The translations under genes and the position numbers were made by a program. A stretch of DNA of 64,000 nucleotides from contig NC_088314.1 in NCBI RefSeq assembly GCF_910592395.1, positions 12,898,001 through 12,962,000 of the forward strand, in the 5' to 3' direction. How positions within the stretch are numbered: position 1 is the stretch's first letter; each line of letters opens with the position of its first letter. Source of the stretch: Lineus longissimus. Taxonomy: Eukaryota > Nemertea > Pilidiophora > Heteronemertea > Lineidae. Below the pieces are notes generated by a model. That model had not been told where the DNA came from and did no database searches. It was given only the letters and a program-made list of their open reading frames with translations. This document shows positions 12,164-47,745 of this stretch, piece after piece.

Positions 12164-12606
12164 GAGACAAGACCACAATTGATTTTTTAAGCCTTTTAGC
12201 AGTTAAATTGTCAATGTTTGACCACGACGCATCAAAGAATGCGTCAAGTAGTGAAACTGAAATTCGGATATGATATACAGGTTAGTCTTGCGAGTAACTG
12301 GTGTGATGGAAATTGGTGATTGACCACGGAAATTTTTGTTTAATCGACAAATTAGACAGACTTTGATATTTCCACTCTTTTCAGCCAACTGGCAGGAAAA
12401 ACTCAAAACACGCCCCCTATTACCCAATTAGCAAAATTCGAAATTAATTTTTTCATCAAATAATTTCTTTATATCTGTAGACTTGCCACAACAAATATTT
12501 TTTCAATACCTCTCCAAATATGTACTTGAGAGTAAAAAACATGCACTCGTCTAATAGATAGGCCTGGACCCTCCAACCTATGAATATTCATTAGTGGTCT
12601 TGTCTC
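12164..12606. mobile_element. TIR block 2 (443 bp)
   Basis: GAGACAAGACCAC to GTGGTCTTGTCTC. The surrounding satellite reads GTGTAAAT before and AATGAAGG after, while the uninterrupted repeat reads GTGTAAATGAAGG, so a 3-bp AAT duplication is possible. Confidence 0.75.
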
Positions 12607-13514: not shown

Positions 13515-15036
13515 TGAAACGGCCAGGGGCCATTGTGCTCACCGTAAGTATTTTTAGTAGACAGTTACAGAAAGTGCTACAGTATGACAATGGTGAATAT
13601 ATTTTTAACTTTGACCTCAGTGACCCCGACAGGTAGGTCAAATAACAAACCAGGGTGATATGTGATGTAGACACATCCACCTGACCATAACAATTTCATC
13701 ACTCATCACTCACTACAGCAATCGGCAAAAAACGATTTCCAAGATGGCCGCCTAATTAAATCTATGGCACCAAATAAATCAAAAAATGAAGAAAATGTAA
13801 GATAGAACTCAGAAAAGAAAAAAGGAAAAGATGAAAAATACAAATATTTTTGGCTGTCCTTGACCGGGGTTTGAACTCACGACCTTTGGATTGCCACAAT
13901 ACGAGGAAAAACCCACAAAACATGCAATTTCGGCCATATTTGAATTCCGATCTGGCTGAAACTTGGCATACAAATAGTGGCTTCTTAGATGCATCATTAC
14001 ACAAAATTAAAACTCTTTACATTGAACAACGACAAAACGTACTAAGAACGGTAAAGTTTTCAACTTTGACCTCTGTGAACTTGAAAGGTGGGTTAAATCA
14101 AAAACCCGTAAGATATGTGATGTATCCTTGCTAGGAGTACCTACCATGAAACTTTTATCAAAAACAAATCAGTAATAAGCGAGAAATCACACTTTTTGAG
14201 TTTTGAGTTTGGGCCCCCTGGTGGCCAAGTCAATAATCAGACCGAACCAAAATTCAGTGTAAAAGGTCAACTGACCTAGGGGGTCATTTGTTCAAAGTTT
14301 CAAGTTCATTACTGTTGCGGTTGAGAAACGTGCCATAGTTACACTCAAACGGCAAATTTACGCCATTTGACCTCTGCGACCTTTAAAAAGTAGGTCAATT
14401 CCGAAAAATCGTGCAACATCTGAGGTAACCTTGCTAGGGGTCCCTGCCATAAAAATTTCATCAAAAACAATTTTGCTAATAAACAGGCTATTGCACTTCT
14501 TACTTTTTCAGTTTTGGCCCCCTGGTGGCCAAATCAAGAATCAGATCAGGCTGAAATTCAGCACCAGAGGTTATCTGATATAGGGGGTTATATGTACCAA
14601 GTTTCAAGCTCATAGCTTTGGTGGTTGAGAAACGTGCCATAGTTACACTCAAACAGCCAATTCACGCCATTTGACCTCTGCGACCTTGAAAAGTAAATCA
14701 AATTAAAAAAACGTAAGATATATGATGTATCCTTGCTATGAGTACCTACCACAAAAGTTTTATCGAAAACAAGTCACTAATAAGCGAGATATCACACTTT
14801 TTAGATATCCACATTTGGCCCCCTGGTGGCCAAGTAGAGAATCAGATCGGACAGAAATTTAGTGTCACGGGTCATCTGACCTAGGGGGTCATGTGTACAA
14901 AGTTTTAAGTTCATAGGCCTAGCGGTTAAAAAACGTGCCACTGTTTTTGAAATAGGATACGACGGACAACGACGACGACGACGACGACGGACAACGGACA
15001 CTGCGGTGTTGTATAGACTACCCTACGGTGAGCCAA
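13515..15036 (+). mobile_element. Helitron/Helentron-like element, family B, copy B2
   Basis: 1522 bp from TGAAACGGCC to GTGAGCCAA. Left flank TTGTAAAAA and right flank TGAAACCG rejoin to the intact satellite, so insertion was between A and T without duplication. It contains the tRNA-like segment at 13850-13898, three ~302-bp repeats with CTCF-like boxes, and a (GAC)n tract near 14960-14995. Confidence 0.75.
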
Positions 15037-15215
15037 TGAAACCGAACTTAGACCGGGGCTAGGTTGGCTCCTATTGGGGTCAAATTAAGTTTTTTTCTCA
15101 TTATTTTAGCTTGTTTTGACCTTAAATCATCAGCAATACAATATTCTAAATGAATTAGAGTGATTTGAGCACTTTCAAATTTTTCACTATATTGACCCAA
15201 AATGTAGTGTAAATG
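15037..15215 (+). repeat. 545-bp satellite-like repeat, partial
   Basis: The first ~180 bp of a unit, ending at the edge of TIR block 3 with GTGTAAATG. Confidence 0.8.
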
Positions 15216-16526
15216 GAGACAAGACCACAATTGATTTTTTAAGCCTTTTAGCAGTTAAATAGTCAATGTTTGACCACGACGCATCAAAGAATGCGTCAAG
15301 TAGTGAAACTGAAATTCGGATATGATATACGGGTTAGTCTTGCGAGTAACTGGTGCGATGGAAATTGGTGATTGACCACGGAAATTTTTGTTTAATCGAC
15401 AAATTAGACAGACTTTGATATTTCCACTCTTTTCAGCAACTGGCAGGAAAAACTCAAAACACGCCCCCAATTACCCAATGAAATGGCCAGGGCCATTGTG
15501 CTCACCTCATGTGGAGGAAAGATGGATAAAGAGCATGGTATTGTGTCATGTAGTGTTAGGTTTGATGTAGGTCCAAGCAATTACAATTTCCCCAAAATGG
15601 CCAATTTACAATACATTCGACCTCTGTGACCTTGAAAAGTAGGTCAAATCAAAGAAGACCCGGGTGACACATTGAATGGTTGTTAGAATTAGATGTACCT
15701 ATGATATAAAATTGGTGCCAATCGGGCAAGTCATTACTAGGAATAATGGCATTTTGAAGAGATTAGGATTTGGCCCCCTCCCTGGAGGCCAAACGGCAAA
15801 TCAGATCGCACCAAACTTCGGTACCTAAGATCACCTGACCAAGGGGTACATGTGTACTTAATTTGTGATCAATAGTCATTGCAGTTAAGAAACGTGCCAT
15901 AGTTACGGCCTGACGGCGAATTTACGCCATTTGACCTCTGTGACCTTGACAAGAAGGTCAAATTAAAAAACTGTGTGACATATACTGTATGGTGGTTAGA
16001 TGTACCCATGATATCAAATTGGTGGCAATCGGGCAAGAAGTTAAGGAATAATCACATTTTTAAGGTTTTTGGATTTTGCCCCCTGGTGGACAAGTGGTGA
16101 ATCATATTGGACCAAACTTCGGTCCCTAAGATCACCTGACTAAGGGGTAAATGTGTACCAAATTTGGTATCAATAGCCATTGCCGTTTAGAAACGTGCCA
16201 TCGTTACATCCTAACGGCCAATTTACACCATTTGACCTCTGTGACCTTGAAAAGGAGGTCAAATCAAAAACCCGGAGGATATATGATGCACCTTTGCTAG
16301 AAGTACCTACCATATTTTTTTCAAAATTTCCCGACTACTATTAAGGGAGATATTGCATATTTTCACTTTTAACGTTTGGCCCCCTGGTGGCCAAACCATG
16401 AAACGAATCGGACCGAAACTTGGTCTCCAAGGTGTCATTACATAAGGGTACATGTGTACCAAGTTTCAACTCAATAGCTTTAACAGTTACGAAACGTGCC
16501 CTGCTAACGGACGACGGACGACGACG

Positions 16527-16594
<68 letters not shown>

Positions 16595-16826
16595 ACGACG
16601 GACGCCACGGTATGGGATAAGCTCACCTCTGCTAAGAGGTGAGCTAATTAGCAAAATTCGAAATCAATTTTTTCATCAAATAATTTCTTTATTTCTGTAG
16701 ACTTGCCACAACAAATATTTTTTCAATACCTCTCCAAATATGTACTTGAGAGTAAAAAACATGCACTCGTCTAATAGATAGGCCTGGACCCTCCAACCTA
16801 TGAATATTCATTAGTGGTCTTGTCTC
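15216..16826. mobile_element. TIR block 3, interrupted by copy A3
   Basis: Block sequence occupies 15216-15478 and 16648-16826, with GAGACAAGACCAC and GTGGTCTTGTCTC ends. The other blocks read ACCCAATTAGC across the break, so A3 sits between A and T of that word. Confidence 0.75.
15479..16647 (+). mobile_element. Helitron/Helentron-like element, family A, copy A3
   Basis: 1169 bp, TGAAATGGCC to GAGCTAA, nested in TIR block 3. Its length exceeds the other copies mainly because the (GAC)n tract (about 16508-16592) is the longest in the window. The empty site in the other blocks shows insertion at A|T with no duplication. Confidence 0.85.
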
Positions 16827-18465
16827 AATGAAGGTACATTTCAGGGGTTAACATTTTGAGTATTTTTTCAAACCAATGTACATGACATCCCACAACTCTC
16901 CAACAAAGGAAAGTCATATCTGGACATTTTGGGAGAAATGAGAGACATTTCAAAGAGTGGTACAACTGTGCCAAAGCGACGAAAGAGGACAAAATGGACA
17001 AAAAGTCATGTTTTTGCAGCCAACAGCACCAAATTCAAAGACCAGCCCTGGCCAGAATAAGTAAGCTATGGAGCTGAAAATTTAGGATGTGATTTAGGAA
17101 TATCTTTGCTGCTTAGGGAACAACTTTCAGAATCAAGGCCTAAGAAGTTTCAAAGAAATAACAAAATAAATGGCAACACAACAAGACTTGTAAAAATGAA
17201 ACCGAACTTAGACCGGGGCTAGGTTGGCTCATATTGGGGTCAAATTAAGTTTTTTTCTCATTATTTTAGCTTGTTTTGACCTTAAATCATCAGCAATACA
17301 ATATTCTAAATGAATTAGAGTGATTTGAGCACATTCAAATTTTTCACTATATTGACCCAAAATGTAGTGTAAATGAAGGTACATTTCAGGGGTTAACATT
17401 TTGAGAATTTTTTCAAACCAATGTACATGACATCCCACAACTCTCCAACAAAGGAAAGTCATATCTGGACATTTTGGGAGAAATGAGAGACATTTCAAAG
17501 AGTGGTACAACTGTGCCAAAGCGACGAAAGAGGACAAAATGGACAAAAAGTCATGATTTTGCAGCCAACAGCACCAAATTCAAAGACCAGCCCTGGCCAG
17601 AATAAGTAAGCTATGGAGCTGAAAATTTAGGATGTGATTCAGGAATATCTTTGCTGCTTAGGGAACAACTTTCAGAATCAAGGCCTAAGAAGTTTCAAAG
17701 AAATTACAAAATGAATGGTAACACAAAAAGACCTGTAAAAATGAAACCGAACTTAGACCGGGGCTAGGTTGGCTCATATTGGGGTCAAATTAAGTTTTTT
17801 TCTCATTATTTTAGCTTGTTTTGACCTTAAATCATCAGCAATACAATATTCTAAATGAATTAGAGTGATTTGAGCACATTCAAATTTTTCACTATATTGA
17901 CCCAAAATGTAGTGTAAATGAAGGTACATTTCAGGGGTTAACATTTTGAGAATTTTTTCAAACCAATGTACATGACATCCCACAACTCTCCAACAAAGGA
18001 AAGTCATATCTGGACATTTTGGGAGAAATGAGAGACATACCAAAGAGTGGTACAACTGTGCCAAAGCGACGAAAGAGGACAAAATGGACAAAAAGTCATG
18101 ATTTTGCAGCCAACAGCACCAAATTCAAAGACCAGCCCTGGCCAGAATAAGTAAGCTATGGAGCTGAAAATTTAGGATGTGATTCAGGAATATCTTTGCT
18201 GCTTAGGGAACAACTTTCAGAATCAAGGCCTAAGAAGTTTCAAAGAAATTACAAAATGAATGGCAACACAACAAGACTTGTAAAAATGAAACCGAACTTA
18301 GACCGGGGCTAGGTTGGCTCATATTGGGGTCAAATTAAGTTTTTTTCTCATTATTTTAGCTTGTTTTGACCTTAAATCATCAGCAATACAATATTCTAAA
18401 TGAATTAGAGTGATTTGAGCACATTCAAATTTTTCACTATATTGACCCAAAATGTAGTGTAAATG
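16827..18465 (+). repeat. 545-bp satellite-like repeat, about three units
   Basis: A partial unit, then complete 545-bp units from 17196 and 17741, then a partial unit from 18286 ending at block 4. The minus-strand 105-codon frame is open at 17229-17546 and 17774-18091. Confidence 0.9.
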
Positions 18466-18908
18466 GAGACAAGACCACAATTGATTTTTTAAGCCTTTTA
18501 GCAGTTAAATTGTCAATGTTTGACCACGACGCATCAAAGAATGTGTCAAGTAGTGAAACTGAAATTCGGATATGATATACGGGTTAGTCTTGCGAGTAAC
18601 TGGTGCGATGGAAATTGGTGATTGACCACGGAAATTTTTTTTTAATCGACAAATTAGACAGACTTTGATATTTCCACTCTTTTCAGCCAACTGGCAGGAA
18701 AAACTCAAAACACGCCCCCTATTACCCAATTAGCAAAATTCGAAATTAATTTTTTCATCAAATAATTTCTTTATATCTGTAGACTTGCCACAACAAATAT
18801 TTTTTCAATACCTCTCCAAATATGTACTTGAGAGTAAAAAACATGCACTCGTCTAATAGATAGGCCTGGACCCTCCAACCTATGAATATTCATTAGTGGT
18901 CCTGTCTC
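18466..18908. mobile_element. TIR block 4 (right end of the composite)
   Basis: GAGACAAGACCAC to GTGGTCCTGTCTC, with one change in the right terminus. It is followed by TTTTAACTTCGG, which is not satellite. Confidence 0.75.
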
Positions 18909-20166: not shown

Positions 20167-21144
20167 AAGAAGCAATGGCTTGCCAATGCCAAAAGTGTTA
20201 AAATGCATGATCTCATCACATTAACCCTTTTTGCCAGGATTACCTTTTTTCTGGGACACCCTGTATGTTGAAAAAACACAAATATTTTCAAGAAACAAAC
20301 AGTGACTCAATAAAATTCGCAAAAAATAATAGCTGCTGGGTGCAAGGAAGTGATGAAATAACTTCACTCAAGAGTCACGGGAGCTAATAAAATACAATAC
20401 ACTCAAATATATGCTGATACCATAGCGATCTGAGGGTTCTCCAAGAGGCGAAATGGAGTCTTGCAAATGATCAAAATGTTCTGCAGAAAGTGGACAATCA
20501 GAGTCAGCTACATGAACTGTATCAGTCTCATTTGCGGTCGGTCCTTCCCAATCAATACCATAATCTGGAAGATCATTTGGCTCCAAATGGTCATCACTAC
20601 CAGGGTCATAAAACATATTATCGATATGAGAATGTCCTGAACCTAACAGACGTAGAATACCCTCAATATAAAGTTGGCAAGGGGTATGACCACGTTCTGA
20701 GGAAAGTCGGTGATTATTCCACTGATTTTGGAAAATGGTGATGTTTCTCTGCATACGAGGTGTAAAACATATTGAAGGGACCAACGATGGATATTGTTAT
20801 TTATATCAAGGATATCAGAGTCCTCCATAAAATAAAAAAGATCATAATAGACATTAGTCGAACCGTGGAAAAGGTCACGCCAAAATCTTTCAATCCTTTG
20901 ATTATGAACAGAGCGGCCACGAATCATGCTCCCTCTGTTCATCCCACGATTGACGTTCATATAGGTCTCGACTTCATTGTTTTCTGTTCCACGATCCGCC
21001 CTTACTCTTGATGGTATTCCATATGTTGAGGTGGCAGTCCGAAAAGATCTTAGCATGGTTGCTGCACGATTGTTGCACGCAATGGACAGAAAAACCATCA
21101 AACGGCTGTACCCATCAATACCACCATGGATGACAAAGCCCCAT

Positions 21145-24100
21145 CTGAAAATATAAAATAAAATACATAAGTATATCAAAGTGATATTCACAGGACTAAT
21201 TGTGGTCGAAACAATTTGGACAAAAAATGTGCCCCTGCTAATGGCATTCTGGCTGCCCACTACATTACAAACAAGCTATTTATTGGCATAACAGTGCAAG
21301 GGTGCGGGGTGGTTGTAGTAGAAGAACCACGACAGTATGTATACATACAGGATGTCCCATGGGCTCCCGAACAAAGCAGCTTGCAAAGTGCCAAAAGGGC
21401 CGATCGACAACACTGGTCAATACGAGTATTTTACAATGGGCTCAAGAGCCCAGGGGACATGCTGTTTGTCATGTTTTCAGCGTCGACACCTACAGACGAT
21501 GGACCATTTGACACTAGTGAGTCACGTCAAAAATGCTGAGCGTCATCAACGATTGCCTGATGACCATGTTCACATTTGGCGCATATCTGTTTTCCACAAA
21601 AATATCCGAAAAAAATTCTCCAGGAACAAATGTTTTTGTTTTTGTCACATGCATGCACACAACGGTCATCTTGAACAAAATGTTTATGTCATTTTGTTCG
21701 TCATGTGTGCCTTAGCTTAAACATTTTTTGGTAGCCCAATCTATTCTACATATGAATTGAGAGGTCTACTCAGCCATTTCTCTTGGGAACTCTTTTTGTC
21801 AATAAACAAAATGGGGATAGTCTTAAATACCCTAAGACTATATTTATCAAAAATAAGGTACTCTTTTAAATAAAAAATATGTGTTAATTTCATTCAATTG
21901 CTCCAGTTGGTAAGGTCACACCAGGACTTTTAATGCGGAGACATCCTAGATTGTTACTTCGGCCCTTCCGGGAGAACATTTTGACCTCTGCTGATCTAAA
22001 TTACTAAATAAAGGTGTGGTCAATAATCAATCTATTTCAAATCGTAGCCTAGGCCAAACCCTTTCAGACGATACCTCATCGGATGATATTCTTCAATGAT
22101 TCCTATACACAAATGACGTTTTGGGTATTTTTTCGAGTCTCATAATGGTCCACAACAGGAGTTTCCAAGAGATGGCTAGGCAAACCCCTCAATTCATAGA
22201 ATGGATGTACCTACCCAAAAATGTTTATAGCACTTGTAACCTAAAAACCCTTTTTTTTGCACAATTCTTGCACTTGGCTCCCCTACATAGCCTTAGTTAG
22301 AACTTCTTTGCAGAAGACTACAGTTCATTTCCAGGATAAAACATTATGCAAATTGGTTTTTAAATTATTGAGGTCGGTCACGTGACCTCGGATTAGCAAA
22401 ATTAGTAAAAAATATATTTAGACATGTATGTATGATCTAGTTTTCCAATCGGCATCATTCTGGTCAGAAGAACAGTCTCATTATATTGCAGGAAATGAAA
22501 TGGCCAGGGCCATTGTGCTCACCTCACGTGGAGGAAAGATGGATAAAGAGCATGGTATTGTGTCATGTAGTGTTAGGTTTGATGTAGGTCCAAGCAATTA
22601 CAATTTCCCCAAAATGGCCAATTTACAGTACATTCGACCTCTGTGACCTTGAAAAGTAGGTCAAATCAAAGAAGACCCGGGTGACACATTGAATGGTTGT
22701 TAGAATTAGATGTACCTATGATATAAAATTGGTGCCAATCGGGCAAGTAGGAATAATGGCATTTTGAAGAACTTAGGATTTGGCCCCCTCCCTGGAGGCT
22801 AAACGGCAAATCAGATCGCACCAAACTTCAGTACCTGAGATCATCTGACCAAGGGGTACATGTGTACTTAATTTGTGATCAATAGTCATTGCAGTTAAGA
22901 AACGTGCCATAGTTACAGCCTGACGGCGAATTTACGCCATTTGACCTCTGTGACCTTGACAAGAAGGTCAAATTAAAAACCTGTGTGACATATACTGTAT
23001 GGTGGTTAGATGTACCCATGATATCGAATTGGTGGCAATCGGGCAAGAAGTAAAGGAATAATCACATTTTTAAGGTTTTTGGATTTTGCCCCCTGGTGGT
23101 CAAGTGGTGAATCATATTGGACCAAACATCGGTCCCTGAGATCACCTGACTAAGGGGTGAATGTGTACCAAATTTGGTATCAATAGTCATTGCAGTTTAG
23201 AAACGTGCCATCGTTACATCCTAACGGCCAATTTACACCATTTGACCTCTTGTGACCTTGAAAAGGAGGTCAAATCAAAAACCCGGAGGATATATGATGC
23301 ACCTTTGCTAGAAGTACCTACCATATTTTTTTCAAAATTTCCCGACTACTATTAAGGGAGATATTGCATATTTTCACTTTTAACGTTTGGCCCCCTGGTG
23401 GCCAAACTATGAAACGAATTGGACCGAAACTTGGTCTCCAAGGTGTCATTACATAAGGGTACATGTGTACCAAGTTTCAACTCAATAGCTCTAACAGTTA
23501 CGAAACGTGCCCTGCTAACGGACGACGGACGACGACGACGACGACGACGCCGACGACGACGACGGACGACGGACGCCACGGTATGGGATAAGCTCACCTC
23601 TGCTAAGAGGTGAGCTAAAAAGCAGTTTGAGAACTTTTTAGGTTTTTTTACCACACGCAGGTGTGTTTAGACTTAGAGGACTTTATTCATCACTGCACAA
23701 TGAAAATATTTTTTATTTTGATACCACCATTGTAATATAATGTAAAGGATTACACTTTTCGATTATAGCATGATTTATTCCAGCAAAGGTCTATGAATGA
23801 TGCCGATAGTGGACGTGACATCCACTATGCTGTTTTGGAAATGGGGAGTGCGGGAATACGGATTAGGCGTGGTGCAAATTGATAGAAAGTGATTTCAAGA
23901 TGGCCACCCTGGTTGTCATATCGAGAATCGAATGAGCCAATTTTCGAAAGGAACTTTCCTCTAGTCATCCCCAACATTCAGACCAAAAATTAATTTCACC
24001 TGACAAATGGTTCTACTTTAAATTGACAGAAACCGATTTCAAGGTGGCTGCCCAGGTGTTATATATCAAGAATCAAACAAGTCCCTTTTTTGAAATGAAC

Positions 24101-32119: not shown

Positions 32120-32860
32120 TGAGAGAAATGACTTTGAAATGTTCTGTAATTAACACAGTTTACCCAATATTGAACAGACTCAAAGTTTTATTTGTTCAAG
32201 TAATCAAATGTATAAGGCCAGGGACACATACACTGCTTTTTCAACTTGGTGGTGCCTGGCTTTGGAGGTAACCTGCTTTCGACCATTTCAAGAGAAAAGA
32301 CTATGAAATGTTCTGTAATTAACACAGTTTACCCAATATTGAACAGAATCAAAGTTTTATTTGTTCAAGTAATCAAATGTATAAGGCCAGGGACACATAC
32401 AATGCTTTTTTCACTTGGTGGTGCCTGGCTGTGGAGGTAACCTGCTCTCGACCATTTCAAGAGAAAAGACTATGAAATGTTCTGTTATTAACACAGTTTA
32501 CCAAATATTGAACAGATTCAAAGTTTTATTTGTACAAGTATTCAATTACATAAGGCCAGGGACACATACAATGCTTTTTTCACTTGGTGGTGCCTGGCTG
32601 TGGAGGTAACCTGCTCTCGACCATTTCAAGAGAAAATACTATGAAATGTTCTGTTATTAACACAGTTTACCAAATATTGAACAGACTCAAAGTTTTATTT
32701 GTACAAGTATTCAATTGCATAAGGCCAGGGACACATACAATGCTTTTTTCACTTGGTGGTGCCTGGCTGTGGAGGTAACCTGCTCTCGACCATTTCAAGT
32801 GAAATGACTATGAAATGTTCTGTAATTAACACAGTTTGCCCAATATTGAACAGATTGGGT
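32120..32860 (+). repeat. 169-bp tandem repeat, about 4.4 copies
   Basis: Units start near 32129, 32298, 32467, 32636 and 32805 with ATGAAATGTTCTGTWATTAA or a close variant. Because 169 is not a multiple of 3, each unit's open frame runs into the next in another frame, giving overlapping 64-codon frames that are unlikely to be genes. Confidence 0.85.
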
Positions 32861-35399: not shown

Positions 35400-37175
35400 G
35401 GATATTCAAATATGGAGAGGTACGTAAGCAGGGGGTGTGTTGTTCAGTCACTTTGGTGTGTAAAAACTGTGGTTTTGATTCGAAATTGTATAAACTTTTT
35501 GAGGACATAGACACTGGCAAGCGCGGACGAAAAGCCGCTCTTCCAAATGTTGCATTACAGATTGCGTTGCAGGACACAATGATTGGCAACGAGAGTATGA
35601 GTTACATACTGAGCATGATGGGAATCCCACCCCCCTGTAGGAGTATCATGCAAAAGCAGGCAAATATAGTTGGTGAAGAAACAGTTAAAATGAATGAGGC
35701 CGATATGGCAGACATACGTGAGAACTTGAAAAGGATACTGCGCCGAAATCAGGACGACATAGGAATCAATGTCCAAGCTGATGGACGCTATAATAGTTTA
35801 CACCTCACTTCGAGGAACAAGATGGGCCGTTGTGCGAGCACAATGACTGGATTATGTGTTGAAAATGTGACAGATGAACACAAAATCATTGACATTGAGG
35901 TTAAAACAAAACTCTGCTGGATAGGGGCTGCAATGCGGGCGAAAGGTTTTGAAGTTAAATGTGGTGCCACTGGCACAAACGTTGACGAACGACACTCGAA
36001 GTGCACGGCTAACTTTCCTGAGGCAGATGCATTCAGAGAATATGATCTTGGGGTTGCATTTGCCGAGACTTTTGAGAAACAGCTAGGGCCTACATGTAGA
36101 ACATTTGACTACAGATGGTGATTCCAGTTCATTCAAAGGGTTAACTGATGCAACAAAAAAGCTCTTCGGCGGCTTATTCACGGTGAAGCATCAACTTGAC
36201 TCTATACATTTGCATCAAGCCCAGACGCGTGCAGGACATAGAGCTGAATTCAGTAAAGGTATGTTCCCGGGACGTACTGCAGAGGAGAGAACACTGTTAA
36301 AAACAACGTTTCTGAATGATCTTAGGGTAAGGTCATCCAAGATTTTGCAATCTCTATTCAAGCGCTGCAACGGTGATCTCGACAGGATCATGGGAAACCT
36401 GTATGACACTGTTGCCTGTGTTGTGAACTGTTATGGTGGTGACTGCACTGGTTGTCCACAGAACGAATTCTCACTGTGCTTAGGCACAACTGGTTCTTGG
36501 TGGCACAAATCAACACGATGGTCATCTTACGGTGAGATTCCCAAGTTTAAAATGACAGTGATTGACAAGAACTTGGTACATCTCGTTTTGGAGGTATGCC
36601 TTAGTAAAGGAGCGTTGCAACAGCTGAGTCTTGGCGTGACAACCCAGGGGGTTGAGTCCAAGAATCGAGGTCTGTCGACCAGCGATCCTAAGATTGTGAC
36701 CAGGAGCAGGAACTCAACCCCTCGTATCCATTCAGCAGCCCACAGAATGAACCATAACATAGCCGAGAGCGGGCGACGGAAACTAAAGTGGTTCAACATC
36801 GAAGTCGATACTTGTTGCCGCCCAATGAAAGCGCTCGACAGAATTGCAATGAACAGGCAGTACACAGTCAGGTACCAACGGAGTGCTAGACACCAGAAGT
36901 TAGCTGGTGTTTTGAAAAACATCAGGGCAACAGATTACTTCACGAAAAAGAAAAACAAAACCAGGGGTGGTGACTACAAGAAACATGTGATGATAACAAT
37001 GCCGGACTTGCGAAGGAAGGCTGTCAAGAAGGCTGTTGCACGACGAGACAGACCGCCTGTACCAGAGTGGAAATGTCTCGACCCAAACAGCAGAAACTAT
37101 GACCACTCCTACTTTCGGCGATCCTTCAAGATCCAACCAGCCACCAAGACATCCAAGAGGTTGCCATCGCGGTAA
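35400..37175 (+). pseudogene. Mutator-like transposase, unit 1 (5'-truncated, frameshifted)
   Basis: Corresponds to residues ~144-734 of the intact protein at 39168. The N-terminal ~143 codons are missing. A 4-bp insertion (CTAG type) near 36082 breaks the frame into 35400-36121 and 36105-37175. A T-to-G change alters the cysteine after the second catalytic aspartate, and one codon is deleted near 35743. Otherwise it is almost identical to units 2 and 3. It cannot make an active transposase. Confidence 0.9.
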
Positions 37176-37723
37176 GAAAACTTTCAAATGTCAATTCAAT
37201 ATAATGATATTTTCTTTCAACTTCAACATATAGCTTACCAGGAAAAATGCATTTAGGGCGGTTGCCATGGCCTGCACAGACTTTCTTGGCATTGCACCTT
37301 TTTCTACTTTGATTGACCCTTCCTCTTTCTATTGTCACGTGCTCGACTTTCACGCACAGAGGATTATGACAAAGATGACTTATATGATAACCTGCGCCAG
37401 TTTTGAACTTCAATTCATCATGGTCACACAAAAACATTGCACGGTGTGCAGTCATTGTGACCGGCTTATCCAAAAAACTTACTTTAACAAACCCGTATGT
37501 CACTTACCCCCCTCTTTTTTTGTTTAGCCCCCTCCCAATTCAAACAAAAACCATCACTTTTAGTCTTTGCTAAAATTCTCGCTCGTAATTCAGATACTTT
37601 TCTCTTGAATTCACCTGCTGAAATAAAAAAATTAGTGAAAGCTTGGTACCCTGCCACCCAGCGTGCTCTGTGCCCGACACCTCCAAAAATGAAAATAACA
37701 TGCAAAACAATCAACACTCTCAT
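37126..37723 (-). pseudogene. His-Me finger endonuclease, unit 1 (frameshifted)
   Basis: Same gene as 45524-46117, but a 4-bp insertion at about 37498 splits it into an N-terminal frame (37723-37484) and a frame with the complete zinc-loop core (37503-37126). The inserted bases create GTAAGT on the coding strand. Without a separate start the core would not be translated in frame. Confidence 0.85.
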
Positions 37724-38011
37724 TACTATTCACAATTGATGATTGTTATGAAACATATCTAGCCCAAAAAAGTAGAAAAATTTGAAATTATTTGAAATTT
37801 TTTGAAAATTTCAATTTTTGGCATTTTCAATTAAAAGCCCTGTAGGACAGGGGGGGGGGGGTTAAATTTGAGAATTTTCTTTTTTTCCACATTTTCCAAT
37901 TTCCATGATATGTCCACACATTCTCAACACATTTCAGCCAATTCAAACGGTTTTTGTGGATTTCAGAGCTCATTTACTATTTTTGACCTGTAACCCAAAA
38001 CCCTCTAAATA

Positions 38012-38440
38012 GAGACAAGACCACAATTGATTTTCCAAGCCATTTCCAGTTATTTCAAATGCACGCCATCAAAGAATGCGTGGAGCTGTGAAACTGAAAT
38101 TCGGATATGATATACGGTTTAGTCTTGTTAGTAACTGGTGCGATTTAAATTGGTGATTGACCACGGAAATATTTTTAAAAATTGACAAGTTTAACACAAG
38201 TGGACATTTTTACCCATTTCGGCCATTTTCACTCCAAATTTGAACCACCCCCTATGGCCAGGTTGTCAAAATTCAAAATTATTTTTTTACCAAACAATTT
38301 ATTTATATCTGTAGACTTGCCACAGCAAATATTTTTTCAATACCTCTCCAAATATGTACTTGAGAGTAAAAAACATGCACTCGTCTAATAGATAGGCCTG
38401 GACCCTCCAACCTATGAATATTCATTAGTGGTCATGTCTC
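38012..38440. mobile_element. Terminal TIR block of transposon unit 1
   Basis: 429 bp from GAGACAAGACCAC to GTGGTCATGTCTC, strongly similar at both ends to the blocks of the 2938-18908 composite and more diverged in the middle. The outside bases AAATA and AATGAAG are also shared with the satellite blocks. Confidence 0.8.
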
Positions 38441-39167
38441 AATGAAGAGGGATAATCTTGAGATATCAATGAAATATGCCTTTTCCCAAGCATTTGAGAT
38501 GTCTTGACTAACATAACCAAGTTTCATCAAAAATGAACTTGATTTGAGCGAGCTATTAACGTTTTAAAATTTTGTCCGATACGGACAACCTACCTTATAT
38601 TTCGTCTTCAAATTGTTTACAGACTGTCTTCAAGTTAAGCTCATTAACTCGTAGAATTCTTAATCGAATGGTACCGAATCTTCGACAAATCACCAGTGGT
38701 CTACAGTCAATCTGAAATAGGAATTTGAAACAATTTTAATTCATGAGAAATATTCAAAAATTTCAATTTTTTGGAAAAAAGTTGTCTTTTTAAAGGATGT
38801 TCCAAGGTTGTGACAGTGGTATCATGCTGAAAATGTCAAAATTTCAAATCGAACAATATTAACTTTGTCTGAAATTTGAAAAACAACAAATATATGATGC
38901 ATTATAAGCATGGAAAGCTTGTTAGTAAGGTGTAAAATGAGAAAAAGATTAACCCATATGTTATCTCCCTGTCTGTCACATCCAAGTCTGACACTTCCAC
39001 AACAGCAACCATTGTCATCGCTATTGTCCTATCAACATCGACCCTTTTGTAATCTCTTGTCCTTTCTTGTGTATTTTCAGTCTGTGGAAGGAAGCATCCC
39101 GAAATAGACATCTCCTAGGAGTACGATTTTAAGCAAAGAAAGACAAGTTACGAAAAGACAAGACAAG
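38441..39167 (+). promoter_or_regulatory. Leader of transposon unit 2 with likely splice acceptor
   Basis: 727 bp between the block and the transposase ATG, repeated nearly unchanged at 42642-43368. A strong acceptor, TTTCTTGTGTATTTTCAG at about 39063-39080, lies 88 bp before the ATG, so the mRNA may have a non-coding first exon. No clear TATA box could be fixed. Confidence 0.4.
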
Positions 39168-41372
39168 ATGAGGACAAAGGCGGGGAGATTGATAGGAAAA
39201 CGGGGTTCTCCGAGGCGCGCTAGGGCATCGAATGCAGCAACGAGAACAATGTTCAAGAGCGGACACGTGCGGAGTGGAGGTGTCGAGGTGGTGAGCGACG
39301 ACGAACGAGAAGTAGGCCTACAACCCGCATGGAGACGACTCACGCCCCAGGAGTACGGACAGGTCACAACGATGGGACACGACGGCAAAAGACACATACC
39401 GGATATTAATAACCGTACTGCCAAGAATGTCAACTTACTACGGGTCAACATGACAGAAGACACTGATGATGAGATGGAGATACCAGATGAGACCATGGAG
39501 CATGATCACGAGAGTTTCGTTGTTCAGACAACCAAACTGATGGATGTGCTCAACGACGTTAACAGGGCCCATAGCGAATATCACGTGAACTGTCAGCCGA
39601 TATTCAAATATGGAGAGGTACGTAAGCAGGGGGTGTGTTGTTCAGTCACTTTGGTGTGTAAAAACTGTGGTTTTGATTCGAAATTGTATAAACTTTTTGA
39701 GGACATAGACACTGGCAAGCGCGGACGAAAAGCCGCTCTTCCAAATGTTGCATTACAGATTGCGTTTCAGGACACAATGATTGGCAACGAGAGTATGAGT
39801 TACATACTGAGCATGATGGGAATCCCACCCCCCTGTAGGAGTATCATGCAAAAGCAGGCAAATAAAGTTGGTGAAGAAACAGTTAAAATGAATGTGGCCG
39901 ATATGGCAGACATACGTGAGAACTTGAAAAGGATACTGCGCCTAAGAAATCAGGACGACACAGGAATCAATGTCCAAGCTGATGGACGCTATAATAGTTT
40001 ACACCTCACTTCGAGGAACAAGATGGGCCGTTGTGCGAGCACAATGACTGGATTATGTGTTGAAAATGTGACAGATGAACACAAAATCATTGACATTGAG
40101 GTTAAAACAAAACTCTGCTGGATAGGGGCTGCAATGCGGGCGAAAGGTTTTGAAGTTAAATGTGTTGCCACTGGCACAAACGTTGACGAACGACACTCGA
40201 AGTGCACGGCTAACTTTCCTGAGGCAGATGCATTCAGAGAATATGATCTTGGGGTTGCATTTGCCGAGACTTTTGAGAAACAGGGCCTACATGTAGAACA
40301 TTTGACTACAGATTGTGATTCCAGTTCATTCAAAGGGTTAACTGATGCAACAAAAAAGCTCTTCGGCGGCTTATTCACGGTGAAGCATCAACTTGACTCT
40401 ATACATTTGCATCAAGCCCAGACGCGTGCAGGACATAGAGCTGAATTCAGTAAAGGTATGTTCCCGGGACGTACTGCAGAGGAGAGAACACTGTTAAAAA
40501 CAACGTTTCTGAATGATCTTAGGGTAAGGTCATCCAAGATTTTGCAATCTCTATTCAAGCGCTGCAACGGTGATCTCGACAGGATCATGGGATACCTGTA
40601 TGACACTGTTGCCTGTGTTGTGAACTGTTATGGTGGTGACTGCACTGGTTGTCCACAGAACGAATTCTCACTGTGCTTAGGCACAACTGGTTCTTGGTGG
40701 CACAAATCAACACGATGGTCATCTTACGGTGAGATTCCCAAGTTTAAAATGACAGTGATTGACAAGAACTTGGTACATCTCGTTTTGGAGGTATGCCTTA
40801 GTAAAGGAGCGTTGCAACAGCTGAGTCTTGGCGTGACAACCCAGGGGGTTGAGTCCAAGAATCGAGGTCTGTCGGCCAGCGATCCTAAGATTGTGACCAG
40901 GAGCAGGAACTCAACCCCTCGTATCCATTCAGCAGCCCACAGAATGAACCATAACATAGCCGAGAGCGGGCGACGGAAACTAAAGTGGTTCAACATCGAA
41001 GTCGATACTTGTTGCCGCCCAATGAAAGCGCTCGACAGAATTGCAATGAACAGGCAGTACACAGTCAGGTACCAACGGAGTGCTAGACACCAGAAGTTAG
41101 CTGGTGTTTTGAAAAACATCAGGGCAACAGATTACTTCACGAAAAAGAAAAACAAAACCAGGGGTGGTGACTACAAGAAACATGTGATGATAACAATGCC
41201 GGACTTGCGAAGGAAGGCTGTCAAGAAGGCTGTTGCACGACGAGACAGACCGCCTGTACCAGAGTGGAAATGTCTCGACCCAAACAGCAGAAACTATGAC
41301 CACTCCTACTTTCGGCGATCCTTCAAGATCCAACCAGCCACCAAGACATCCAAGAGGTTGCCATCGCGGTAA
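39168..41372 (+). CDS. Mutator-like DDE transposase, unit 2 (intact, 734 aa)
   Basis: Cuts and joins transposon ends in the nucleus. A basic N-terminus (1-30) and a variable region precede a Cys-rich segment (C157, C158, C164, C167), then an RNase H-like core with D272 in VQADGRY, D382 in TTDCDSSSF and E562 in TQGVESKNR. The order and spacing fit the Mutator-like transposase domain found in many invertebrate genomes. Between D382 and E562 lies a Cys cluster (C487, C492, C495, C503). The C-terminus is basic (680-734). The ATG is the first in frame. The translation is identical to unit 3. The stop overlaps the 3' end of the opposite-strand nuclease gene by 50 bp. Kolobok-type classification is a possible alternative. 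Confidence 0.88.
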   Translation: MRTKAGRLIGKRGSPRRARASNAATRTMFKSGHVRSGGVEVVSDDEREVGLQPAWRRLTPQEYGQVTTMGHDGKRHIPDINNRTAKNVNLLRVNMTEDTDDEMEIPDETMEHDHESFVVQTTKLMDVLNDVNRAHSEYHVNCQPIFKYGEVRKQGVCCSVTLVCKNCGFDSKLYKLFEDIDTGKRGRKAALPNVALQIAFQDTMIGNESMSYILSMMGIPPPCRSIMQKQANKVGEETVKMNVADMADIRENLKRILRLRNQDDTGINVQADGRYNSLHLTSRNKMGRCASTMTGLCVENVTDEHKIIDIEVKTKLCWIGAAMRAKGFEVKCVATGTNVDERHSKCTANFPEADAFREYDLGVAFAETFEKQGLHVEHLTTDCDSSSFKGLTDATKKLFGGLFTVKHQLDSIHLHQAQTRAGHRAEFSKGMFPGRTAEERTLLKTTFLNDLRVRSSKILQSLFKRCNGDLDRIMGYLYDTVACVVNCYGGDCTGCPQNEFSLCLGTTGSWWHKSTRWSSYGEIPKFKMTVIDKNLVHLVLEVCLSKGALQQLSLGVTTQGVESKNRGLSASDPKIVTRSRNSTPRIHSAAHRMNHNIAESGRRKLKWFNIEVDTCCRPMKALDRIAMNRQYTVRYQRSARHQKLAGVLKNIRATDYFTKKKNKTRGGDYKKHVMITMPDLRRKAVKKAVARRDRPPVPEWKCLDPNSRNYDHSYFRRSFKIQPATKTSKRLPSR

Positions 41373-41920
41373 GAAAACTTTCAAATGTCAATTCAATATA
41401 ATGATATTTTCTTTCAACTTCAACATATAGCTTACCAGGAAAAATGCATTTAGGGCGGTTGCCATGGCCTGCACAGACTTTCTTGGCATTGCACCTTTTT
41501 CTACTTTGATTGACCCTTCCTCTTTCTATTGTCACGTGCTCGACTTTCACGCACAGAGGATTATGACAAAGATGACTTATATGATAACCTGCGCCAGTTT
41601 TGAACTTCAATTCATCATGGTCACACAAAAACATTGCACGGTGTGCAGTCATTGTGACCGGCTTATCCAAAAAACTTACTTTAACAAACCCGTATGTCAC
41701 TTACCCCCCTCTTTTTTTGTTTAGCCCCCTCCCAATTCAAACAAAAACCATCACTTTTAGTCTTTGCTAAAATTCTCGCTCGTAATTCAGATACTTTTCT
41801 CTTGAATTCACCTGCTGAAATAAAAAAATTAGTGAAAGCTTGGTACCCTGCCACCCAGCGTGCTCTGTGCCCGACACCTCCAAAAATGAAAATAACATGC
41901 AAAACAATCAACACTCTCAT
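41323..41920 (-). pseudogene. His-Me finger endonuclease, unit 2 (frameshifted)
   Basis: Carries the same 4-bp insertion as unit 1 (near 41695), splitting the gene into 41920-41681 and 41700-41323. The shared lesion shows that units 1 and 2 descend from one frameshifted copy. Confidence 0.85.
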
Positions 41921-42212
41921 TACTATTCACAATTGATGATTGTTATGAAACATATCTAGCCCAAAAAAGTAGAAAAATTTGAAATTATTTGAAATTTTTT
42001 GAAAATTTCAATTTTTGGCATTTTCAATTAAAAGCCCTGTAGGACAGGGGGGGGGGGGGGGGGTAAATTTGAGAATTTTCTTTTTTTCCACATTTTCCAA
42101 TTTCCATGATATGTCCACACATTCTCAACACATTTCAGCCAATTCAAACGGTTTTTGTGGATTTCAGAGCTCATTTACTATTTTTGACCTGTAACCCAAA
42201 ACCCTCTAAATA

Positions 42213-42641
42213 GAGACAAGACCACAATTGATTTTCCAAGCCATTTCCAGTTATTTCAAATGCACGCCATCAAAGAATGCGTGGAGCTGTGAAACTGAAA
42301 TTCGGATATGATATACGGTTTAGTCTTGTTAGTAACTGGTGCGATTTAAATTGGTGATTGACCACGGAAATATTTTTAAAAATTGACAAGTTTAACACAA
42401 GTGGACATTTTTACCCATTTCGGCCATTTTCACTCCAAATTTGAACCACCCCCTATGGCCAGGTTGTCAAAATTCAAAATTATTTTTTTACCAAACAATT
42501 TATTTATATCTGTAGACTTGCCACAGCAAATATTTTTTCAATACCTCTCCAAATATGTACTTGAGAGTAAAAAACATGCACTCGTCTAATAGATAGGCCT
42601 GGACCCTCCAACCTATGAATATTCATTAGTGGTCATGTCTC
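42213..42641. mobile_element. Terminal TIR block of transposon unit 2
   Basis: 429 bp, nearly identical to the unit 1 block, with ends GAGACAAGACCAC and GTGGTCATGTCTC. It follows a poly-G tract at about 42047-42063, longer than the one in unit 1. Confidence 0.8.
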
Positions 42642-43368
42642 AATGAAGAGGGATAATCTTGAGATATCAATGAAATATGCCTTTTCCCAAGCATTTGAGA
42701 TGTCTTGACTAACATAACCAAGTTTCATCAAAAATGAACTTGATTTGAGCGAGCTATTAACGTTTTAAAATTTTGTCCGATACGGACAACCTACCTTATA
42801 TTTCGTCTTCAAATTGTTTACAGACTGTCTTCAAGTTAAGCTCATTAACTCGTAGAATTCTTAATCGAATGGTACCGAATCTTCGACAAATCACCAGTGG
42901 TCTACAGTCAATCTGAAATAGGAATTTGAAACAATTTTAATTCATGAGAAATATTCAAAAATTTCAATTTTTTGGAAAAAAGTTGTCTTTTTAAAGGATG
43001 TTCCAAGGTTGTGACAGTGGTATCATGCTGAAAATGTCAAAATTTCAAATCGAACAATATTAACTTTGTCTGAAATTTGAAAAACAACAAATATATGATG
43101 CATTATAAGCATGGAAAGCTTGTTAGTAAGGTGTAAAATGAGAAAAAGATTAACCCATATGTTATCTCCCTGTCTGTCACATCCAAGTCTGACACTTCCA
43201 CAACAGCAACCATTGTCATCGCTATTGTCCTATCAACATCGACCCTTTTGTAATCTCTTGTCCTTTCTTGTGTATTTTCAGTCTGTGGAAGGAAGCATCC
43301 CGAAATAGACATCTCCTAGGAGTACGATTTTAAGCAAAGAAAGACAAGTTACGAAAAGACAAGACAAG
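42642..43368 (+). promoter_or_regulatory. Leader of transposon unit 3 with likely splice acceptor
   Basis: Repeat of the 38441-39167 leader, including the TTTCTTGTGTATTTTCAG acceptor upstream of the transposase ATG. Confidence 0.4.
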
Positions 43369-45573
43369 ATGAGGACAAAGGCGGGGAGATTGATAGGAAA
43401 ACGGGGTTCTCCGAGGCGCGCTAGGGCATCGAATGCAGCAACGAGAACAATGTTCAAGAGCGGACACGTGCGGAGTGGAGGTGTCGAGGTGGTGAGCGAC
43501 GACGAACGAGAAGTAGGCCTACAACCCGCATGGAGACGACTCACGCCCCAGGAGTACGGACAGGTCACAACGATGGGACACGACGGCAAAAGACACATAC
43601 CGGATATTAATAACCGTACTGCCAAGAATGTCAACTTACTACGGGTCAACATGACAGAAGACACTGATGATGAGATGGAGATACCAGATGAGACCATGGA
43701 GCATGATCACGAGAGTTTCGTTGTTCAGACAACCAAACTGATGGATGTGCTCAACGACGTTAACAGGGCCCATAGCGAATATCACGTGAACTGTCAGCCG
43801 ATATTCAAATATGGAGAGGTACGTAAGCAGGGGGTGTGTTGTTCAGTCACTTTGGTGTGTAAAAACTGTGGTTTTGATTCGAAATTGTATAAACTTTTTG
43901 AGGACATAGACACTGGCAAGCGCGGACGAAAAGCCGCTCTTCCAAATGTTGCATTACAGATTGCGTTTCAGGACACAATGATTGGCAACGAGAGTATGAG
44001 TTACATACTGAGCATGATGGGAATCCCACCCCCCTGTAGGAGTATCATGCAAAAGCAGGCAAATAAAGTTGGTGAAGAAACAGTTAAAATGAATGTGGCC
44101 GATATGGCAGACATACGTGAGAACTTGAAAAGGATACTGCGCCTAAGAAATCAGGACGACACAGGAATCAATGTCCAAGCTGATGGACGCTATAATAGTT
44201 TACACCTCACTTCGAGGAACAAGATGGGCCGTTGTGCGAGCACAATGACTGGATTATGTGTTGAAAATGTGACAGATGAACACAAAATCATTGACATTGA
44301 GGTTAAAACAAAACTCTGCTGGATAGGGGCTGCAATGCGGGCGAAAGGTTTTGAAGTTAAATGTGTTGCCACTGGCACAAACGTTGACGAACGACACTCG
44401 AAGTGCACGGCTAACTTTCCTGAGGCAGATGCATTCAGAGAATATGATCTTGGGGTTGCATTTGCCGAGACTTTTGAGAAACAGGGCCTACATGTAGAAC
44501 ATTTGACTACAGATTGTGATTCCAGTTCATTCAAAGGGTTAACTGATGCAACAAAAAAGCTCTTCGGCGGCTTATTCACGGTGAAGCATCAACTTGACTC
44601 TATACATTTGCATCAAGCCCAGACGCGTGCAGGACATAGAGCTGAATTCAGTAAAGGTATGTTCCCGGGACGTACTGCAGAGGAGAGAACACTGTTAAAA
44701 ACAACGTTTCTGAATGATCTTAGGGTAAGGTCATCCAAGATTTTGCAATCTCTATTCAAGCGCTGCAACGGTGATCTCGACAGGATCATGGGATACCTGT
44801 ATGACACTGTTGCCTGTGTTGTGAACTGTTATGGTGGTGACTGCACTGGTTGTCCACAGAACGAATTCTCACTGTGCTTAGGCACAACTGGTTCTTGGTG
44901 GCACAAATCAACACGATGGTCATCTTACGGTGAGATTCCCAAGTTTAAAATGACAGTGATTGACAAGAACTTGGTACATCTCGTTTTGGAGGTATGCCTT
45001 AGTAAAGGAGCGTTGCAACAGCTGAGTCTTGGCGTGACAACCCAGGGGGTTGAGTCCAAGAATCGAGGTCTGTCGGCCAGCGATCCTAAGATTGTGACCA
45101 GGAGCAGGAACTCAACCCCTCGTATCCATTCAGCAGCCCACAGAATGAACCATAACATAGCCGAGAGCGGGCGACGGAAACTAAAGTGGTTCAACATCGA
45201 AGTCGATACTTGTTGCCGCCCAATGAAAGCGCTCGACAGAATTGCAATGAACAGGCAGTACACAGTCAGGTACCAACGGAGTGCTAGACACCAGAAGTTA
45301 GCTGGTGTTTTGAAAAACATCAGGGCAACAGATTACTTCACGAAAAAGAAAAACAAAACCAGGGGTGGTGACTACAAGAAACATGTGATGATAACAATGC
45401 CGGACTTGCGAAGGAAGGCTGTCAAGAAGGCTGTTGCACGACGAGACAGACCGCCTGTACCAGAGTGGAAATGTCTCGACCCAAACAGCAGAAACTATGA
45501 CCACTCCTACTTTCGGCGATCCTTCAAGATCCAACCAGCCACCAAGACATCCAAGAGGTTGCCATCGCGGTAA
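43369..45573 (+). CDS. Mutator-like DDE transposase, unit 3 (intact, 734 aa)
   Basis: Same 734-residue protein as unit 2, with D272, D382 and E562 and both Cys clusters preserved, 4201 bp downstream. This unit is the only one that also has an intact nuclease, so it is the best candidate for an autonomous copy. The stop codon falls within the last 50 bp of the converging nuclease gene. An upstream in-frame start was not seen, and the ATG context (GACAAGATGA) is acceptable. Confidence 0.88.
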   Translation: MRTKAGRLIGKRGSPRRARASNAATRTMFKSGHVRSGGVEVVSDDEREVGLQPAWRRLTPQEYGQVTTMGHDGKRHIPDINNRTAKNVNLLRVNMTEDTDDEMEIPDETMEHDHESFVVQTTKLMDVLNDVNRAHSEYHVNCQPIFKYGEVRKQGVCCSVTLVCKNCGFDSKLYKLFEDIDTGKRGRKAALPNVALQIAFQDTMIGNESMSYILSMMGIPPPCRSIMQKQANKVGEETVKMNVADMADIRENLKRILRLRNQDDTGINVQADGRYNSLHLTSRNKMGRCASTMTGLCVENVTDEHKIIDIEVKTKLCWIGAAMRAKGFEVKCVATGTNVDERHSKCTANFPEADAFREYDLGVAFAETFEKQGLHVEHLTTDCDSSSFKGLTDATKKLFGGLFTVKHQLDSIHLHQAQTRAGHRAEFSKGMFPGRTAEERTLLKTTFLNDLRVRSSKILQSLFKRCNGDLDRIMGYLYDTVACVVNCYGGDCTGCPQNEFSLCLGTTGSWWHKSTRWSSYGEIPKFKMTVIDKNLVHLVLEVCLSKGALQQLSLGVTTQGVESKNRGLSASDPKIVTRSRNSTPRIHSAAHRMNHNIAESGRRKLKWFNIEVDTCCRPMKALDRIAMNRQYTVRYQRSARHQKLAGVLKNIRATDYFTKKKNKTRGGDYKKHVMITMPDLRRKAVKKAVARRDRPPVPEWKCLDPNSRNYDHSYFRRSFKIQPATKTSKRLPSR

Positions 45574-46117
45574 GAAAACTTTCAAATGTCAATTCAATAT
45601 AATGATATTTTCTTTCAACTTCAACATATAGCTTACCAGGAAAAATGCATTTAGGGCGGTTGCCATGGCCTGCACAGACTTTCTTGGCATTGCACCTTTT
45701 TCTACTTTGATTGACCCTTCCTCTTTCTATTGTCAAGTGCTCGACTTTCACGCACAGAGGATTATGACAAAGATGACTTATATGATAACCTGCGCCAGTT
45801 TTGAACTTCAATTCATCATGGTCACACAAAAACATTGCACGGTGTGCAGTCATTGTGACCGGCTTATCCAAAAAACTTACTTTAACAAACCCGTATGTTA
45901 CCCCCCTCTTTTTTTGTTTAGCCCCCTCCCAATTCAAACAAAAACCATCACTTTTAGTCTTTGCTAAAATTCTCGCTCGTAATTCAGATACTTTTCTCTT
46001 GAATTCACCTGCTGAAATAAAAAAATTAGTGAAAGCTTGGTACCCTGCCACCCAGCGTGCTCTGTGCCCGACACCTCCCAAAATGAAAATAACATGCAAA
46101 ACAATCAACACTCTCAT
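45524..46117 (-). CDS. His-Me finger (I-PpoI-like) endonuclease, 197 aa, intact
   Basis: Predicted to cut double-stranded DNA using one metal ion. Core motif YHISHLCHNPLCVKVEHLTI: H115 matches the general-base His of I-PpoI, N136 its metal-binding Asn, and R93 (in TAHR) its Arg. Zinc ligands are C60, C117, C122, H127 for site one and C142, C148, H151, C157 for site two. These correspond to the homing-endonuclease zinc-binding loop family. The first ~50 residues are unlike the family. A GTAAGC just after the last ligand (KCIFPG) could be a splice donor, so the C-terminal ~36 residues may be intron read-through. It converges on and overlaps the transposase gene. It is frameshifted in units 1 and 2. 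Confidence 0.82.
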   Translation of the reverse strand: MRVLIVLHVIFILGGVGHRARWVAGYQAFTNFFISAGEFKRKVSELRARILAKTKSDGFCLNWEGAKQKKRGVTYGFVKVSFLDKPVTMTAHRAMFLCDHDELKFKTGAGYHISHLCHNPLCVKVEHLTIERGRVNQSRKRCNAKKVCAGHGNRPKCIFPGKLYVEVERKYHYIELTFESFLTAMATSWMSWWLVGS

Positions 46118-46394
46118 TACTATTCACAATTGATGATTGTTATGAAACATATCTAGCCCAAAAAAGTAGAAAATTTTGAAATTATTTGAAATTTTTTGAA
46201 AATTTCAATTTTTGGCATTTTCACTTAAAAGCCCTGTAGGACAGGTTGAATTTGAGAATTTTCTTTTTTTCCACATTTTCCAATTTCATGATATGTCCAC
46301 ACATTCTCAACACATTTCAGCCAATTCAAACGGTTTTTGTGGATTTCAGAGCTCATTTACTATTTTTGACCTGTAACCCAAAACCCTCTAAATA

Positions 46395-46823
46395 GAGACA
46401 AGACCACAATTGATTTTCCAAGCCATTTCCAGTTATTTCAAATGCACGCCATCAAAGAATGCGTGGAGCTGTGAAACTGAAATTCGGATATGATATACGG
46501 TTTAGTCTTGCGAGTAACTGGTGCGATTTAAATTGGTGATTGACCACGGAAATCTTTTTAAAATTGACAAGTTTGACACAAGTGGACATTTTTACCCATT
46601 TCGGCCATTTTCACTCCAAATTTGAACCACCCCCCTATGGCCAGGTTGTCAAAATTCAAAATTATTTTTTTACCAAACAATTTATTTATATCTGTAGACT
46701 TGCCACAGCAAATATTTTTTCAATACCTCTCCAAATATGTACTTGAGAGTAAAAAACATGCACTCGTCTAATAGATAGGCCTGGACCCTCCAACCTATCA
46801 ATATTCATTAGTGGTCTTGTCTC
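46395..46823. mobile_element. Terminal TIR block of transposon unit 3 (array end)
   Basis: 429 bp ending GTGGTCTTGTCTC, then unique flank AGCAGGCTCG. It is more like the satellite-composite blocks than are the blocks of units 1 and 2 (GTCTTGCGAGTAAC; intact right terminus). The poly-G tract before it is absent. Confidence 0.8.
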
Positions 46824-47745
46824 AGCAGGCTCGTAGCAGACGATGGATTTGGAAATTTTAAAACGCTAGTTAAAAAATAACTATCCGTAGGAAAATAATT
46901 ATTTTCATTCAGGATTGATTAAATGACTGCCATTAACCCATTTCTAAAGTTTTATCAGTACATCAAATATCTATGAAGTCTCTCTTTAAGTCCACCCCCC
47001 ATTTTGAACTCGTTTAGCAGAGCCTTATACCAAGAAATACCTCGTGTTTAGGACACAGTTTGTCTGTGTCTTCATCAACCTCAAAATAACATCACTGGTA
47101 CCTTTTTGGAAATATTGACCTGTCTCAATAAGATCCCCAGCCGTGAATAGATTACTAATCTATCTCAGGTACCAATTACACGTGTTGCTGTGTACACAGC
47201 TTCAAGTAAGCCACCAGAGCACGCTTACATCTGCTGAACTCAGGACCTTGTGTGATTCATTGAGCAAAACTCTTCTTTCCATATCACAAAAGGAAGAATT
47301 ATTCCCCAATCATTGTCCCTAACGTCTTGCCATTTCACAAGTGTAAGAATATCCCCTCGGATCACAGTCCCCACTACTGGACTAAATACTTACCATTTCA
47401 CAAGCGTAAGAATTACACTCCTCGGTCGACCCAATAGGTACCCCGTACCAGCCACAACTATTAACCCCTCTACACTACAAATTCATAGCGTCAAAAGAAA
47501 TGGGCTAATGTCCCGTGTCAAAAATTGGCCCCCGAGAATTCGAACGATGATATTTTTTCAGCAAAAACTAATCTGCTTGACTGTGTGTTATGTTATTTTC
47601 GCCAAGGATAACTTTTACAATGTAAAACATGTGATCTCTAAAGGTGAGGTGATTTGAAAGAGACAATCATACAGTTCGTGGGTCATCGTGTCATGCCTTC
47701 TGATTGTGTACAGCCCAGAGGTGTATTTCTCAGTGTAGCGGTAAG
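46824..47745. other. Unassigned DNA
   Basis: No gene is supported. Two short similar stretches (CATTTCACAAGYGTAAGAAT) occur at about 47330 and 47391. Confidence 0.4.

Follow-up and report, generated by a model that had tools for sequence, protein, structure and literature searches.

What kind of DNA transposon carries a homing-type nuclease beside its transposase, and what does the nuclease do for it? The locus that raises this question lies in a 64,000-nucleotide stretch of contig NC_088314.1 from the nemertean Lineus longissimus (hereafter the window), where a sequence-only reading had placed a 734-aa DDE transposase and, converging on it, a 197-aa nuclease. Both genes are present as described, as open reading frames (ORFs) that match PF20700 and PF05551 above the Pfam curated cut-offs, so the observation is not a chance one, and the reading as a DDE transposon that carries its own I-PpoI-type nuclease, arranged convergently, is supported. 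The extent given for the element, 42642-46823, was correct for the interior and the right long terminal direct repeat (LTDR), but it starts at the first base of the interior (INT) and so leaves out the left LTDR at 42213-42641. The complete monomer is a 4611-bp LTDR-INT-LTDR composite at 42213-46823, with a 429-bp direct repeat on each side of a 3753-bp interior. It is the third and last unit of a tandem array of three, A, B and C, at 35401-46823; when the window is compared with itself, 35401-42642 matches 39599-46824 at 99.3%. The left end of the array has been lost, and the left LTDR of unit A is absent. The features of the array are as follows.

35401 to 38011, plus strand: INT of unit A, left-truncated within the transposase gene; 98.7% match to the unit C INT from base 1159 on
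38012 to 38440, plus strand: LTDR shared by units A and B, 429 bp, with ends GAGACAAGACCAC and GTGGTCATGTCTC; identical to 42213-42641
38441 to 42212, plus strand: INT of unit B, a chimera by its difference pattern, C-type left of 40876 and A-type right of 41534
39168 to 41372, plus strand: transposase ORF of unit B, 734 aa, protein identical to that of unit C
41323 to 41700, minus strand: nuclease remnant of unit B, a 125-aa ORF (PF05551, E = 4.8e-12), frame broken by a 4-bp insertion
42213 to 42641, plus strand: LTDR shared by units B and C; left LTDR of the element first read at 42642-46823
42642 to 46394, plus strand: INT of unit C, 3753 bp
43369 to 45573, plus strand: DDE transposase of unit C, 734 aa (PF20700, E = 2e-50)
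45524 to 46117, minus strand: His-Me (His-Cys-box) nuclease of unit C, 197 aa (PF05551, E = 1.7e-13), the sole open copy of three
46395 to 46823, plus strand: right terminal LTDR, with 19-nt inverted ends at 46395-46413 and 46805-46823, 89% complementary

All LTDRs of the array are 429 bp long, starting at 38012, 42213 and 46395; the two inner ones are identical to each other and 98.1% identical to the terminal one. Each begins with GA and finishes with TC, and the inverted ends (GAGACAAGACCAC...GTGGTCTTGTCTC) span 19 nt at 89% complementarity. Across units the right end reads GTGGTC(T or A)TGTCTC, which pairs with GAGACAAGACCAC at the left end.

This anatomy has a published counterpart in KolobokP, an animal DNA transposon of 228 families in seven phyla, whose hosts include L. 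longissimus (Kojima and Bao, 2022, Mob DNA 13:24; PMC9587614). As described there, an INT lies between LTDRs of ∼450 or 660 bp, each with short inverted ends (5′-RR and YY-3′), and autonomous oyster families are 4,022-4,748 bp long. A DDE transposase is encoded, and most families add a downstream His-Me nuclease, read from the complementary strand. Along with the DDE residues, the transposase has a CCHC zinc motif after the first D, a DxxH motif, and a further zinc motif between the second D and the E (PMC9587614). Copies occur as solo repeats and as multimers of the form (LTDR-INT)n-LTDR, the latter being common; the target-site duplication is 3-5 bp, and the main text reports no strong target preference (PMC9587614). 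Based on the composite anatomy, the 429-bp LTDR, the GA/TC inverted ends, the convergent gene pair, the transposase motifs and this published description, the element is almost certainly KolobokP. The pairing of transposase and nuclease is real, but the idea of a Mutator element with an undescribed partner is superseded, as the pair and its layout were published in 2022 and the kind of element is already known (PMC9587614). Absence of the nuclease from other copies, named earlier as telling against a partnership, is not what is found, with the nuclease region present in all three units and in most published families (PMC9587614). Insertion of the nuclease as a separate, later event is not favoured, since its position is constant across the three units and agrees with the published layout. 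Among open-licence papers in PubMed Central, no further KolobokP paper was found besides PMC9587614.

The transposase frame is open over 734 aa in two of the three units (B and C), while the unit A copy is truncated and frameshifted. Motif residues, assigned from the published description (PMC9587614) rather than from alignment to a characterised Kolobok protein, are Asp272; Cys317, Cys332, His343 and Cys346; Asp382; the DxxH pair Asp410-His413; Cys487, Cys492, Cys495 and Cys503; and Glu562. The best named match is a L. longissimus protein (P0004), 94% identical over 58% of the query. We aligned six of the 17 relatives found (P0002-P0006 and P0008) and saw that the open copies carry Cys383 where unit A and all six relatives have glycine, and Val333 where unit A and five of the six have glycine. 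These two substitutions suggest that the open transposase copies may be impaired. Other searches with the transposase returned a chance-level match among solved structures (E = 0.29), one chance-level match in PADLOC (E = 0.013), and two stretches fitting a pattern in the viral collection, neither of which was confirmed.

The 3′ ends of the unit C nuclease and transposase ORFs overlap by 50 bp. The nuclease frame is open in one unit of three, the 4-bp insertion being common to A and B. A phmmer alignment to I-PpoI (1evw) is weak (E = 0.021, query residues 90-164); counted by hand from it, Ser114, His115, Cys117, Cys122, His127, Glu131, Asn136 and Cys142 lie opposite I-PpoI Ser97, His98, Cys100, Cys105, His110, Glu114, Asn119 and Cys125. 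Of the full set of I-PpoI-type catalytic and zinc residues claimed from sequence, His115, Asn136, Cys117, Cys122, His127 and Cys142 are therefore in register. The second zinc stretch contains Cys148, His151 and Cys157, although gaps in the alignment there leave them out of exact register. The alignment does not confirm the roles given to Arg93, which lies within it though not opposite an arginine, or to Cys60, which lies outside it. PADLOC gave weak matches to three models named homing endonuclease. One protein of 28 candidate relatives passed (P0001), full length and 99% identical, and it is found on two contigs from another source. The open form is thus not peculiar to the NC_088314.1 record, though P0001 may come from the same species.

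How did the array grow? We aligned the three units, grouping adjacent gap columns into single difference events. On the left there are 10 such events, all separating A from B and C, and on the right 16, all separating A and B from C; the odds of so clean a split are ∼1.9e-7 for randomly ordered events. Left of the truncation of unit A, B and C show no differences. The switch falls at 40876-41534 of B, corresponding to 36679-37337 of A and 45077-45735 of C, an interval that covers the 3′ end of the transposase gene and the C-terminal part of the nuclease. From there to the right-hand LTDR is 678 (B), 674 (A) or 659 (C) bases, while the left-hand LTDR is more than 2.4 kb off. Growth by unequal exchange between misaligned units is the probable explanation, and a well-supported one if the assembly is correct. 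In a dimer A-C, one such exchange would create unit B with a left part of C type and a right part of A type, and would explain the identity of the two inner LTDRs.

An assembly in which a repeat-graph loop was run twice over units A and C would yield exactly this A-B-C pattern, and unit B has only two differences of its own, a G-run four bases longer than that of A and an adjacent substitution. However, these two differences suggest separately sequenced molecules, even if a homopolymer error would look alike, and multimers are common in the published family (PMC9587614). We consider an artefactual unit B unlikely, and retain unequal exchange. The G-run itself (42041-42063), near the LTDR, is present in A and B at different lengths and absent from C, and is either unstable or error-prone.

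The window holds a second, related element.

2938 to 18908, plus strand: nonautonomous KolobokP-like multimer, LTDR-(INT)8-LTDR-(INT)2-LTDR-(INT)3-LTDR, with an INT of ∼545 bp and TTTT on both sides

Its four LTDRs share 83-84% identity with those of the autonomous array, and its 13 interiors stand in groups of eight, two and three. A larger deletion or an insertion marks five of the 13 interiors, and one of the LTDRs is interrupted by an inserted sequence. At each of the 10 INT-INT junctions a single AATG or AATA is retained, like the one short shared motif described for KolobokP junctions, where abutted INT runs of up to four are reported (PMC9587614). The outer flanks read CTACCTTTT directly before the element and TTTTAACTT directly after it; TTTT is likely a 4-bp target duplication, with a chance match not negligible in such T-rich flanks. 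A blastn comparison of the autonomous INT with the multimer INT gave no matches. The multimer resembles a satellite that arose from a DNA transposon.

Three inserts in the multimer (4259-6527, 9182-11434 and 13521-15034) sit at nearly the same place, around base 366-376, each in a different 545-bp interior. The last two are related to each other, and no relation of the first to them is detectable; the shared position could reflect either a common target or remnants of an ancestral interior that was longer. The two related inserts belong to a dispersed repeat family, also found at 1-907, 1769-2898, 15480-16645 and 22494-23622, with an internal tandem unit of ∼301-305 bp and copies 72-98% alike. 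Several copies start near GGCCAGGG(G)CCAT and finish near GGTGAGC, and one splits an LTDR at 15479/16646. Elsewhere in the window, a 205-aa ORF on the minus strand (20643-21260) matches PF24764, “Integrase core domain” (E = 3.6e-56), and probably belongs to another transposon or retroelement, and a 169-bp tandem repeat occupies 32122-32854 (4.3 copies, 95% matches).

Comparison of LTDRs between the autonomous and nonautonomous families singles out their right end. Counting a column as shared if any state, gap included, occurs in both groups, a lenient measure applied to five LTDRs, 139 of the last 140 alignment columns are common to the two families against 236 of the remaining 309, and none of 20,000 shuffles was as extreme. 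This conservation could be explained by binding of the transposase, by a nuclease site or by gene conversion. Near the right end, four of the five LTDRs scanned contain a 12-bp palindrome, ATGAATATTCAT, which the rightmost LTDR misses by one base; one autonomous LTDR has a second, unshared palindrome. A mononucleotide-shuffled LTDR would be expected to contain 0.18 perfect palindromes of at least 12 bp, and ATGAATATTCAT is weak evidence.

These observations bear on what the nuclease does. In the published proposal, it would cut inside the LTDR or at its ends, and unequal crossover or integration of a circle would follow (PMC9587614). As judged from published copies, the transposase would move the whole composite or a single LTDR by way of the inverted ends (PMC9587614). 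On the published model, the nuclease would most likely cut within the LTDR or at its end and so provoke repair by exchange (PMC9587614). We hold this combined account, in which the transposase moves the composite, the array grows by unequal exchange and the nuclease cuts the LTDR, to be somewhat more probable than not as a whole. Its most doubtful component is the nuclease as the trigger of exchange, toward which we remain tentative and slightly sceptical. The exchange point lies inside the INT and not in an LTDR, and thus the array gives no direct support for such a trigger. If the nuclease does cut at the LTDR, repair must have reached at least ∼660 bp from the nearest one; the position does not favour a nuclease trigger, though repair may extend past a cut. 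Also counting against it, the nuclease is broken in two units of the three, and it was a broken copy that the duplication multiplied.

It is possible, if on balance doubtful, that the nuclease instead serves transposition, for example by opening a circle at abutted LTDR ends, and that ordinary recombination between long repeats, for which no nuclease is needed, made the array grow. Circles with abutted ends have been suggested as a possible nuclease target (PMC9587614), and an exchange point inside the INT is what ordinary homologous recombination would give. We think it improbable that the strongly conserved right third of the LTDR, which has the palindrome ATGAATATTCAT near its end, holds the nuclease cut site and that LTDR cutting with long-tract repair copies whole units, a form of homing within the array. 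If true, a DNA transposon would in this way become a satellite-like array that amplifies itself, as the 13-INT multimer at 2938-18908 would suggest. Improbable as well is the role first proposed from sequence, in which the nuclease would cleave the empty site, donor or allelic, and repair would recopy the transposon, as in homing or in TnpB-aided transposons. I-PpoI-type nucleases do act in homing (PMC9587614), and the predicted active-site His and Asn are kept here, but a long-site nuclease needs a constant target, which an element with no strong target preference reported does not offer (PMC9587614), and the right flank of the array differs from the flanks of the multimer; this role is not supported.

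To an already published transposon-nuclease pairing, the window adds traces of recombination that can be read. Provided that the trimer is real, the exchange in its last duplication took place in the INT rather than in the LTDR, and this constrains the published “induced unequal crossover” model (PMC9587614). The multimer ties KolobokP relatives to satellite-like arrays, and the kept right part of the LTDR is the first place to seek a nuclease cut site or a transposase-binding site.

Mutator (MuDR) elements have long terminal inverted repeats and a target-site duplication of ∼9 bp. The element described here resembles them in that Pfam names PF20700 “Mutator-like transposase” and that MuDR and Kolobok are among five superfamilies with a common C/DxxH motif (PMC9587614). 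In contrast, it has short, 19-nt inverted ends on direct repeats, the only terminal inverted repeats among the 25 longest of 45 inverted pairs, and Kolobok-type zinc motifs. On these two grounds MuDR membership is rejected, and the “Mutator-like” of the sequence-only reading reflects only the Pfam name. The nuclease shares with I-PpoI, a group I intron homing endonuclease, the PF05551 domain and, in register, the putative active-site His and Asn along with most of the zinc ligands, but it is encoded in a DNA transposon and the match is weak. TnpB and Fanzor are RNA-guided nucleases; they are unrelated to the nuclease here and comparable by analogy, as accessory nucleases carried by transposons. 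With KolobokP, as far as its published main text describes it, the array and multimer share the LTDR-INT-LTDR composite, the LTDR length class, the inverted ends, the DDE transposase with a complementary-strand His-Me nuclease, LTDR-sharing multimers and the INT-INT junction motif, and differ from it in nothing in kind (PMC9587614). The details that go beyond that main text are the exchange point mapped to within the INT, the eight INTs abutted in one run, and the conservation of the right third of the LTDR.
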